NCBI RefSeq assembly: GCF_002157855.1
Contig: NZ_CP020880.1
Span: 3,968,001-4,032,000 of the forward strand
Length of the DNA stretch: 64,000 bases
Source: Sutcliffiella horikoshii
Lineage (GTDB): Bacteria; Bacillota; Bacilli; Bacillales; Bacillaceae_I
Direction: 5' to 3'
This document shows, piece after piece, positions 20,091 to 60,227 of the stretch (position 1 is the first letter of the stretch; every line of letters begins with the position of its first letter). The notes under the pieces were generated by a model. The model had not been told where the DNA came from. It worked only from the letters and a program-made list of their open reading frames with translations, and did not search any database. Both the position numbers and the translations under genes were made by a program.

Positions 20091-20157
20091 AAAGGGTCAG
20101 TCCCCCGCAAGGAGGATTTAATGGAGGAGGAAATGTTTTGAGGGGGACAGACCCTTT
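20091..20157. repeat. Degenerate member of the GGGTC palindrome family (inverted pair)
   Basis: AAAGGGTCAGTCCCCC at 20091-20106 faces GGGGGACAGACCCTTT at 20142-20157, complementary at 15 of 16 positions. The rest of the 295-base gap between the acyltransferase and mbl genes holds only the mbl terminator. Confidence 0.6.
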
Positions 20158-20189
20158 AGTTTCTTCTTATATTATTTATTATTGTATAG

Positions 20190-20221
20190 AGAAAAGGAGC
20201 TGCCCTGGTGGGTGCTCCTTT
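20190..20221 (-). terminator. Rho-independent terminator after mbl
   Basis: In the minus direction AAAGGAGC at 20214-20221 pairs with GCTCCTTT at 20193-20200, followed by TCTC. It lies 19 bases after the mbl stop. Confidence 0.65.
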
Positions 20222-20239
20222 GGTGTGTTTGTTTTGTAA

Positions 20240-21241
20240 TTAGGCGAAGCTTTTGGATGGCAGGCGGTCGATGTGGTCGAGCATGATGCCTGTTCCGATT
20301 GCTACGCAGTCCATTGGTTGTTCTGCTACTAGTACTGGGACTTTTAGTTCTTCTGCTAGTAGTTGGTCCATTCCGTGCAGGAGTGCTCCTCCGCCTGTCA
20401 GGATGACGCCGCGGTCGATAATGTCTGCGGATAGTTCAGGTGGTGTGCGTTCTAGGACGCTTTTTGCCGCTTGAACGATTACTTGGACGGATTCGCGTAG
20501 TGCTTCTTCGATTTCAGTGGATGTGACAGTAATCGTTTGCGGAAGTCCGCTTACCATGTCGCGTCCGCGAATGTCGATGGATTCGTTGCGGCCGCCTGGG
20601 AATACGGTTGCAATTTCAATCTTGATGTTTTCCGCTGTGCGCTCACCGATTAGAAGCTTGTATTTCTTTTTGATGTGTTGAAGGATTTCTGCGTCGAACT
20701 TGTCCCCGGCCATTTTAATGGAAGAAGCAGTTACGATGTCGCCCATGGAAAGGACTGCAACGTCTGTTGTTCCGCCACCGATGTCGACTACCATGTTACC
20801 ACTAGGTTGGAAGATGTCCATGCCCGCTCCGATTGCTGCTACTTTTGGCTCTTCTTCTAAGTAAATTTTCTTGCCGCCGCTCTTTTCTGCCGCTTCTCTG
20901 ATTGCTTTTTGCTCAACAGACGTGATGTTTGTCGGGCAGCAAATCAGGATGCGCGGTTTAGAAAGGAAGCCTTTTACGTTTAGTTTTTTGATGAAGTGTT
21001 TGAGCATTGCTTCTGTTACTTCGAAGTCTGCGATAACACCGTCTTTTAGCGGACGCATTGCGACGATGTTTCCAGGTGTACGACCTACCATCTTACGGGC
21101 TTCTTCTCCTACTGCCAATACTTTGCCTGTGTTCGTGTCAAGTGCTACTACAGAAGGCTCGTTCAGTACGATCCCTTTTCCTTTTACGTGGATGAGTACG
21201 TTCGCCGTACCCAGGTCAATTCCGATATCTCTTGCAAACAT
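20240..21241 (-). CDS. mbl: MreB-like cytoskeletal protein Mbl
   Basis: A 333-residue bacterial actin. Landmarks are the phosphate-1 loop DIGIDLGTANVLIHVKGKGIVLNEPS, the connect-1 and phosphate-2 motif VVDIGGGTTDVAVLSMGDIV, and the adenosine motif ILTGGGALLHGMDQLLAEEL. The short N-terminus and the spoIIID-mbl context separate it from MreB and MreBH. It polymerises under the membrane and guides peptidoglycan synthesis in the side wall. It is downstream of spoIIID but has a terminator and a 400-base gap in between, so it can be expressed separately. Confidence 0.95.
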   Translation of the reverse strand: MFARDIGIDLGTANVLIHVKGKGIVLNEPSVVALDTNTGKVLAVGEEARKMVGRTPGNIVAMRPLKDGVIADFEVTEAMLKHFIKKLNVKGFLSKPRILICCPTNITSVEQKAIREAAEKSGGKKIYLEEEPKVAAIGAGMDIFQPSGNMVVDIGGGTTDVAVLSMGDIVTASSIKMAGDKFDAEILQHIKKKYKLLIGERTAENIKIEIATVFPGGRNESIDIRGRDMVSGLPQTITVTSTEIEEALRESVQVIVQAAKSVLERTPPELSADIIDRGVILTGGGALLHGMDQLLAEELKVPVLVAEQPMDCVAIGTGIMLDHIDRLPSKSFA

Positions 21242-21479
21242 CTTTCTGTTTTCCTCCTTGCGTCATTGCTTTATTTGTGACTTTTATCTGAATGTTCTTT
21301 GATTGTTTAGTTGCCATTGCTAATTTTGAACACTATCTTTAGTCCTAATTGTATATTCTATCACATTTTACTAAATAAAGGGTGAATTTAACAGTAGTTT
21401 GGTGTCATTTTTTTGAGTATTTTGTCGAAAGAATTTGCTTGAGGATCAATTAGAGCTTTCAGAAATACGAAATTTTAAA

Positions 21480-21579
21480 AGTTCGTGCCGAAATGGGGGA
21501 AGTTCGTGCGGATATGCACCGAGTTCGTGCGAAAACACGACGAGTTCGTGCCAAAAGGGCCCTAGTTGATGCCAAAACC
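21480..21579. repeat. Tandem 21-nt repeats, cluster 1 (AGTTCGTGC family)
   Basis: Five units with exact 21-base spacing start at 21480, 21501, 21522, 21543 and 21564. The first half of each unit is conserved as AGTTCGTGC (the last copy AGTTGATGC). The second half varies but tends to read (C/G)(A/G)AAA followed by G/C-rich bases. The cluster fills part of the 406-base spiIIID-mbl gap (spoIIID side). The remainder holds the spoIIID terminator and no gene. Confidence 0.85.
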
Positions 21580-21604
21580 GTTTCCATCCATTATTTTTAC
21601 AAAA

Positions 21605-21640
21605 ACCAAAAATACCAGAGCATCTCCTTCGCCCTGGTAT
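21605..21640 (-). terminator. Rho-independent terminator after spoIIID
   Basis: In the minus direction ATACCAG at 21634-21640 pairs with CTGGTAT at 21612-21618, followed by TTTTTGG. It lies seven bases from the spoIIID stop. Confidence 0.8.
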
Positions 21641-21647
21641 CTCCTGT

Positions 21648-58771: not shown

Positions 58772-58773
58772 TG

Positions 58774-59286
58774 CTAGATCACCTGCTTCCCTGTCTTGGC
58801 TTCATAACGAATTTTCTCGCGGAGCTTGTTGATTCCATAAATAAGAGCCGCTGGATTTGGTGGGCATCCCGGTATGTACACATCTACAGGTACAATTTGG
58901 TCCACACCTTTTACAACGGCATAGGATTTAATATATGGACCGCCTGCAGTCGCACAGGAACCCATTGCAATGACCCATTTCGGCTCAGGCATTTGATCAT
59001 ACAGGCGCTTTAGGACTGGTGCCATTTTTTTCGTCACGGTACCAGACACGATCATACAGTCAGACTGACGCGGTGATGTACGAAAGAAGGACCCAAAACG
59101 GTCGAGGTCATAGTGGGACGAGCCAACTCCCATCATTTCGATGGCACAGCAAGCTAGACCGAATGTCATCGGCCACATGGAATTACTGCGGGCCCACGCT
59201 TTCAGCTCCTCCAATGTTGTCAGGAAGACTGTCTGTTTCAGCTCTTCCATTTCCTCTGGTGAGATACTCTCTAGATTTAGATCCAT
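58774..59286 (-). CDS. nuoB: NADH-quinone oxidoreductase subunit B (4Fe-4S N2)
   Basis: About 170 residues from the ATG at 59286, chosen for AAGAAGGTG eight bases upstream; a further in-frame ATG at 59307 lacks a ribosome site. Cluster N2 ligands are in [23 protein letters not shown] Cys, [10 protein letters not shown] and PGCPPNP. The enzyme passes electrons from N2 to the quinone. The start overlaps the nuoA end by ten bases. Confidence 0.93.
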
Positions 59287-59651
59287 TTCAACACCTTCTT
59301 CTTCCATGCGTATATTAATCCGATCAGTAATAAAACTACGAAAATAAGCATTTCAATCAGTGCAAAAATCCCCAATTTCTCGTATGCCACCGCCCATGGA
59401 TACAGGAAAACCGTCTCCACATCGAAAATGACAAATAACAGGGCAAATATGTAATAACGAACATTAAACTGAACACGTGAATCATGAAAGGGATCAATTC
59501 CACTTTCATAGGTCGTCTGCTTGGCTGCTGATGGCTTATTCGGACGCAAAACACGTCCAATAGCAAGCGCCACGACCGGAAGTAATACCCCTAGAGCCAA
59601 GAATACAACCACTATCAAATAGTTATTTTGATATAAGTTAAGTAGATTCAT
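59277..59651 (-). CDS. nuoA: NADH-quinone oxidoreductase subunit A
   Basis: A 124-residue three-helix subunit. The loop [40 protein letters not shown] is conserved. It is the first gene of the operon and lies 70 bases downstream of a SigA-like promoter. Confidence 0.94.
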
Positions 59652-59720
59652 GCCCGCCCCCTCCGAAGTCTCTCTTCATTTTCAGACTGCTCACAATATT
59701 TAAAAATGTAACCGATAACA

Positions 59721-59749
59721 ATTATATCAAATACCCATATCGGTGTCGA
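59721..59749 (-). promoter_or_regulatory. SigA-like promoter of the nuo operon
   Basis: Minus-strand TCGACA (59744-59749), 17 bases, then TATAAT (59721-59726), 70 bases upstream of nuoA. The -10 is also preceded by TG in the extended position. Confidence 0.6.
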
Positions 59750-60056
59750 CAGGAGATATCCTTATTATGGCTATTGTTTTTAGGGAGGCGAAGGGATTTG
59801 TTATGGGTGGAGGGTGGATTTTGTTTTTCGAATGAAAATGTGAAGCGGCATGATCAAAGTTGGAGGGAAAATTACCTTGTTTTGAAAAGAGCGGGCTTGG
59901 TTACTGCTGGAACCAATGAAGTATGTGGTTACTTGGAGGGGTTTTAGTTGGAAGTAGGTAATTGTGGGTTAGTTTTTGGGCCCGTGATACACATAACCGT
60001 TTCAAATTGGATTAACAAGCGGGCATTTCGGCCGAAATCAATTTAGTAAAACCACT

Positions 60057-60176
60057 ATATCCATTGTTAAAGTGGTTTTATCCATTGTAAAAAATTTATA
60101 TCCATTGTAAATTCGGTTTATCCATTGTTAACAGACTTATATCCATTGTAAAAACAATATATCCATTATAGGCGTT
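60057..60176. repeat. Tandem 20-21 nt repeats, cluster 3 (TATCCATTGT family)
   Basis: The core TATCCATTGT starts at 60059, 60080, 60100, 60120, 60141 and 60161 (the last TATCCATTAT), with spacing 21, 20, 20, 21 and 20. Between cores the sequence is AT-rich and variable. Confidence 0.85.
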
Positions 60177-60210
60177 TCACTGCTTAAATCCTTTAGCACA
60201 TCACCGCACA

Positions 60211-60227
60211 GCGGGTCAGACCCCTCT
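60211..60227 (+). repeat. GGGTCAGACCC palindrome upstream of nuoA
   Basis: GCGGGTCAGACCCCTCTTTA with core 60213-60223, the same CCTCTTTA subtype as the copies at 36063 and 36106. Confidence 0.75.

Follow-up and report, generated by a model that had tools for sequence, protein, structure and literature searches.

The window analysed here, 64,000 nucleotides of the Sutcliffiella horikoshii chromosome (contig NZ_CP020880.1, positions 3,968,001 to 4,032,000), contains a set of dispersed GGGGTC-W-GACCCC palindromes and a gene encoding a RAYT-like single-domain HUH/Y1 transposase, referred to below as the RAYT. A first-pass annotation had read the palindromes as a single family, possibly mobilised by this RAYT in the way that REP palindromes are mobilised in Gram-negative bacteria. 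Both partners were followed in the window, in the whole genome, in the genus and in the order Bacillales.

The RAYT gene and two classes of palindrome

The RAYT gene lies at 37827..38423 on the minus strand and encodes 198 amino acids from an ATG at 38423, its open reading frame (ORF) extending upstream to a TTG at 38519. Its assignment as a single-domain HUH protein of the RAYT type is supported: the product scores 56.3 bits against Pfam Y1_Tnp (cut-off 23), matches E. coli TnpA-REP (PDB 4er8, profile E 3.8e-5) and carries the residues HTH as HUH motif and YIHQNP as Y---NP motif, both kept in 8/8 aligned orthologues, with Q replaced by L in the other seven. Against NCBIfam REP_Tyr_transpos it reaches 77.8 bits as the window protein and 79.1 in the genome search, for a cut-off of 80. 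At E 0.001 Pfam finds Y1_Tnp alone in the protein, and no C-terminal helix-turn-helix (HTH) extension. As expected of a RAYT, the gene is single-copy, chromosomal and not an insertion sequence (IS); it is the sole Y1_Tnp gene found by profile search in the whole genome, and relatives, in each case below 60% identity, occur on 18 of 72,556 plasmid records and on 1 of 50,697 phage records. Among named relatives, the closest are records of Sutcliffiella horikoshii and Bacillus sp. (84-94% identity).

The palindromes are genuine, and their abundance greatly exceeds chance expectation. With up to 2 mismatches, GGGGTCWGACCCC has 14 matches in the window, against a mean of 0.56 and a largest value of 4 in 100 shuffles. 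Genome-wide, GGGTCTGACCC occurs 82 times and the same word read backwards is absent (n=0), and within the 400 kb, rich in cores, that surround the RAYT, the word GGGTCWGACCC is found 35 times, each of the 15 other GGGxyWy'x'CCC words being found once or not at all. A chance origin was rejected on these three comparisons. All eleven cores first described as full hold an exact GGGTCWGACCC; only seven are exact 13-mers (30138, 38566, 43191, 44478, 44551, 45928 and 48341), the outer G being replaced by A or C in the 13-mers starting at 36062, 36105, 45991 and 60212. The half cores were also recovered, at 46008 with 2 mismatches and near 44501, as was a degenerate pair at 20093/20143 (2 mismatches each). 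With a simple ORF caller, the claim that all copies are intergenic holds for 70 of the 77 family copies of the genome, many intergenic palindromes per genome being a mark of REP and REPIN families in the broad sense, and for 9/11 in the window; the two others (44479 and 44552) lie inside one ORF, which may be spurious. No known RNA family reached gathering score in window positions 28000-62000.

All 82 genome copies were oriented to the central T and read with their flanks, giving 77 copies in two classes (44 class A and 33 class B, four copies being assigned to a class by hand) and 5 chance-like copies inside ORFs. The core is common to all; beyond it the classes have nothing in common, and a single family for all copies was rejected. 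Class A units span about 56 bp and are one-sided: the box TTCGAC stands 28 bases ahead of the core, which is followed by a T-run. Selection of this class relied on a CCT at -7 and a nearby A, so that CCT is circular as a class A feature; the box was not used in sorting. At -28 the box is exact in 28/44 copies and reads TTC[GT]A[CT] in 34/44. The flank alignment proposed in the first-pass annotation thus found a unit boundary, the left edge being sharp (1.8 bits at -28 and 0.0 at -29, over 43 copies). The T-run ends near +27, with a T content of 0.50 in +11..+30 vs 0.24 upstream. Class B shows TAAAGAG before the core and TC..TGCGTTAAAGC..TAAAG after it, has no sharp edge and is often paired, as 35- or 43-bp tandems or as inverted pairs. 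GTAG was found within 12 bases upstream of the core in 0/44 class A and 1/33 class B copies. The 11-mer cores of the window start at 30139, 38567, 43192, 44479, 44552, 45929, 45992 and 48342 (class A) and at 36063, 36106 and 60213 (class B), within the following features.

37827..38423, minus strand: RAYT-like single-domain HUH/Y1 transposase gene
30111..30166, plus strand: class A unit, core 30139-30149, box TTCGAC
38539..38594, plus strand: class A unit upstream of the RAYT, box TTCGAC, 13 extra stem pairs
43164..43219, plus strand: class A unit, degenerate box GTCTAG
44462..44517, minus strand: class A unit, box TTCAAC, upstream part overlapping the half core near 44501, assigned by hand
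44524..44579, plus strand: class A unit, box TTCGAC, 7 extra stem pairs
45912..45967, minus strand: class A unit between murA-like and spoIID genes, box TTCGAC
45975..46030, minus strand: class A unit adjoining the murA-like gene, box TTCTAC
48325..48380, minus strand: class A unit, box TTCTAC
36041..36097, minus strand: class B copy, first of a 43-bp tandem
36084..36140, minus strand: class B copy, second of the 43-bp tandem
60191..60247, minus strand: class B copy
20093..20155, no strand assigned: inverted pair of variant cores, AGGGTCAGTCCCC ... GGGGACAGACCCT, about 50 bp apart, relation to the family not shown

In 12/44 class A copies (for example 38554-38590 in the window) the stem is lengthened by 5-14 further pairs, whose letters vary between copies while the pairing is kept. 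Folded as single strands, five class A examples gave z values of -0.58 to -6.90 and one inverted class B pair gave -10.09. One class A unit is found some 140 bp upstream of the RAYT start, and a core is present upstream of the RAYT in 9/9 named relatives.

Cores and RAYTs in Sutcliffiella and other Bacillales

Sixteen Sutcliffiella genomes, the source genome being G000, were counted for Y1_Tnp and for both core forms, GGGTCTGACCC and GGGTCTGGCCC. Eleven of them carry a RAYT 84-100% identical to that of the window, with 80-100 copies of GGGTCTGACCC and 0-2 of GGGTCTGGCCC. The two forms number 15 and 56 in G003 (RAYT identity 62%, genome 80% complete) and 9 and 54 in G017 (60%); 12 of the 15 GGGTCTGACCC copies of G003 belong to another local repeat, in a C-rich context and devoid of the class A box (loci L206, L207, L208, L211 and L212). 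The genomes with neither RAYT type hold 1 and 8 (G004), 0 and 1 (G011) and 0 and 0 (G013) copies; G011 also has a Y1_Tnp fragment, which could not be placed in the RAYT type of the window. Abundance and sequence of the cores follow the cognate RAYT, as in REP/REPIN families in the broad sense, with exceptions that are weighed below. The proposal that copy number tracks the RAYT was therefore upheld within the genus, and RAYT-less relatives, in which an equal abundance would have spoken against it, hold 1, 0 and 9 cores of both forms together.

The class A unit at 45975..46030 follows a gene matching the EPSP_synthase family, which is presumably murA. It has the GACCC form in the 11 close-RAYT genomes and the GGCCC form in G017, G003 and G004, and at the same site in the RAYT-less G011 and G013 the unit is decayed. 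It lies 23 and 25 nt after the murA-like stop in these two genomes, 31 in G000 and 19 in G017. This site provides the strongest evidence that the likeness of the copies depends on the enzyme. As a separate observation, the gap between the murA-like gene and spoIID in G013 (L157) contains, after the decayed unit, an array of repeats of about 50 bp with an inner GTCGAGCA...TGCTCGAC palindrome.

Across the order, 397 genomes were sampled, the counts being read by hand from tables; 248 have a RAYT match and 196 have at least one core. A RAYT match is present in 53/54 genomes with at least 10 cores vs 195/343 others (Fisher p 5e-11, relatedness not being taken into account). A core is found no more than 500 bp from the RAYT at 11/11 Sutcliffiella loci (0.35 expected), at 11/31 loci of other Bacillales genera with at least 42% identity (0.37 expected) and at 2/24 loci below 42% (0.13 expected). 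Among 30 loci chosen for at least 10 cores, except for the weak match of G069, 13 have a core on both sides of the RAYT within 320 bp (exact or with one mismatch), in varied orientation. When 80 RAYTs were placed in a tree, the 24 rows that have a core at most 500 bp away all fell into one clade of 53, the other clade having 0/27 (support 100/98); 11 of these 24 rows are Sutcliffiella near-copies and four are another near-identical set.

Outside the order, only five sampled genomes have at least 8 cores (G466 9, G694 15, G701 10, G736 10 and G762 11); in four of them a RAYT match reaches E 1e-20 or better, which is not so in G466. No exact core was found within 600 bp of the RAYT at 27 loci there. 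The core as a phylum-wide RAYT partner is thus not supported, being rare outside the order and not found beside these RAYT loci.

Apart from the palindromes, window positions 1-8000 have a G+C content of 29-32% vs 43-49% across most of the window.

Chromosomal placement and proposed upkeep of the copies

Family copies are absent from 1.68-2.97 Mb (0/62 clusters), a region that makes up 30% of the chromosome and is located on the side distant from dnaA, and 24/62 clusters are crowded in 3.8-4.2 Mb, around the RAYT; the clustering probabilities treat clusters as independent. The gene at the start of contig 1, recognised by eye and not by family search, we take to be dnaA. With the origin set at 0 and the terminus assumed within the copy-free region, the T strand of class A runs with the fork in 34/44 copies (p 4e-4), in 31/40 after cluster merging and in 13/16 of those in divergent or convergent gaps. 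Class A units are therefore mostly on the lagging-strand template (34/44).

We consider it likely, with a probability of roughly 70%, that the GGGGTC-W-GACCCC copies are a Gram-positive REP-like family recognised and maintained by the RAYT at 37827-38423. The class A unit (TTCGAC at -28, AAA, CCT, palindrome and T-run) would fold as a hairpin when single-stranded, and the RAYT would recognise this hairpin on the exposed lagging-strand template, where it would bind and cleave single-stranded DNA. By rarely copying or replacing a unit, it would keep the copies alike and matched to the enzyme; upon divergence of the RAYT the copies would follow, from GACCC to GGCCC, and upon its loss they would decay. 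The enzyme, rather than host selection, would then be what keeps the copies alike, an action of the same RAYT on class B being less certain. TnpA-REP and IS200/IS605 enzymes are described, in passages of PMC8266576 and PMC6006769, as acting on folded single strands and on one strand only, with the lagging-strand template preferred. One-sided class A units with a fork bias would fit such an action.

An unlikely alternative is that the copies are plain intrinsic terminators, with a core common by descent or convergence and the RAYT as a bystander. Class A indeed combines a hairpin with a T-run, the window scan predicts terminators at several cores and class B stands behind a same-direction gene end in 20/31 copies. 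Moreover, a subset of class A may have been taken up as terminators, because the twelve long stems pair with differing letters and none of them is in a divergent gap (0/12, vs 11/32 of the other class A copies), a use that is compatible with recognition by the RAYT. As an account of all the copies, however, the terminator explanation has no need of a fixed core and of a box 28 bases upstream, since pairing suffices for terminators. In addition, a same-direction gene end precedes the class A T strand in only 21/39 intergenic copies, which is the chance level (p 0.75), 10/39 are in divergent gaps, core form tracks RAYT subtype, and the copies adjoin RAYTs of one clade.

The copies could also be fossils, namely the ends of an IS200/IS605-like element, dispersed in the distant past and kept alike by recombination, with no present action of the RAYT. 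We regard this explanation as very unlikely. Turnover was followed in 24 family clusters over 400 kb of G000, compared with G009 and G016. The number of cores per cluster is the same in 19 and different in 5 with respect to G009, and the same in 12 and different in 10 with respect to G016, in which 2 clusters have no matching interval. The differences are mostly a neighbouring tandem unit gained or lost, as for the two units at 4047367/4047461 in G000, represented by one each in G009 and G016; point changes, deletions and replaced stretches are also seen. Positions are thus mostly stable between species, as expected of fossils, but recombination alone fails to explain the decay of the copies where the RAYT is lacking and the wholesale change of letters where it has diverged. 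Another very unlikely reading is that a host protein, whether DNA-binding or chromosome-organising, binds at the core, which would explain the fork orientation, the terminus-side absence and the crowding near the RAYT, but three congeners live with 0, 1 and 9 cores, class B is devoid of fork bias and a link to RAYT loci in other genera would be unexpected.

Several observations weigh against recognition and upkeep by the RAYT. Among the 24 clusters compared with G009 and G016, none proved to be an insertion into a clean empty site, and the differences seen need no transposase, because tandem gain or loss, point changes, deletions and replacements suffice; of the mobilisation originally proposed, the link between palindrome and RAYT is supported and movement by the enzyme stays conjectural. 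Within the genus, the independent events are few, and G004, which has no close RAYT, retains 9 cores and an intact GGCCC unit, so that a unit can outlast the enzyme. Class B shows no fork bias (16/33) and does not cleanly follow RAYT subtype, a GACCC copy being found in G017 (L204). In G000 itself the RAYT has a core within 500 bp on one side only. Elsewhere in the order, 29/53 rows of the core-associated RAYT clade have no core within 500 bp, and cores occur in genomes with no RAYT match (14 in G326, 9 in G040, 9 in G299, 8 in G187 and 7 in G083); G069 has 65 cores and only a weak NF047646 match, itself devoid of tblastn similarity to the window protein. Finally, the class A example with z -0.58 is no better folded than shuffles, and structure prediction of the RAYT from eight close orthologues gave a mean pLDDT (predicted local distance difference test) of 36.7.

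A more specific proposal is put forward tentatively, at somewhat less than even odds: the RAYT would actively keep some 80-100 short elements matched to itself in place by reading, on the lagging-strand template, a non-GTAG code made up of the TTCGAC box, AAA, CCT and the GGGGTC hairpin. Within a single genus this code would have undergone a natural one-letter switch, GACCC to GGCCC, and where the enzyme was lost the elements would have decayed at their sites. With regard to the host role of RAYTs and the upkeep of REP families, one genus here offers matched states, with the enzyme present, diverged together with a changed core, or absent with decayed copies at the same site. Through these states, direct tests become possible of what the enzyme recognises and of how far the repeats depend on it, in harmless Gram-positive bacteria and with a GTAG-less element.

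Comparison with known repeat systems

The first-pass annotation had considered a Gram-positive counterpart of REP/RAYT as largely undescribed. This holds for the palindrome itself, of which no description was found in the literature searched (most subscription journals not covered), the 16 papers that contain its letters bearing titles on other subjects, but not for the wider setting: TIRYT genes, which are RAYT-like and flanked by GGGGWSAS repeats, were published in 2013 in other phyla (Di Nocera 2013, PMC3733652), and Geobacillus RAYT genes are already listed by COG name in sections of PMC9693769 and PMC4847372.

The TIRYT, or TIRtron, system, placed in subclass 2.1 in a passage of PMC6006769, shares with the present one a lone RAYT-like gene and flanking repeats with a GGGG half-site (GGGGTCAG here fits GGGGWSAS), and in both some families are amplified, as dimers or clusters. 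In contrast, the main text of PMC3733652 gives other phyla and no Bacillus repeat of this kind, and the element described here has a full palindrome and an extra 5' box. The 198-amino-acid protein has no Pfam-detectable HTH extension, unlike subclass 2.1, and the inverted repeats of TIRYT genes are two-sided, whereas Sutcliffiella RAYTs have a core on one side within 500 bp and the two-sided Bacillales loci (13/30) vary in orientation. The half-site thus fits the TIRYT motif, for a protein lacking the HTH extension and a gene not flanked on two sides in the genus.

The GTAG REP/RAYT systems (REPtron, groups 2 and 3), as presented in parts of PMC3733652 and PMC8266576, have in common with this one a 4er8-related HUH/Y1 protein, intergenic palindromes in large numbers, doublets resembling REPINs (class B here), co-evolution of enzyme and repeat, and copies clustered near the gene; they differ by the GTAG at the palindrome foot, which is lacking here in all 44 class A copies and in all but one of the 33 class B copies. 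IS200/IS605 elements share the enzyme superfamily, hairpin ends and, according to a passage of PMC6006769, the preference for the lagging-strand template, but the RAYT gene is single-copy and the window showed no element in which two matching ends enclose the RAYT. Repeated stem-loops are also known in Bacillus genomes (bcr1, and Bhal-1 in PMC2267715); the passages of PMC2267715 consulted state no RAYT link. The Sutcliffiella system works like REP/RAYT but is not a GTAG REP.

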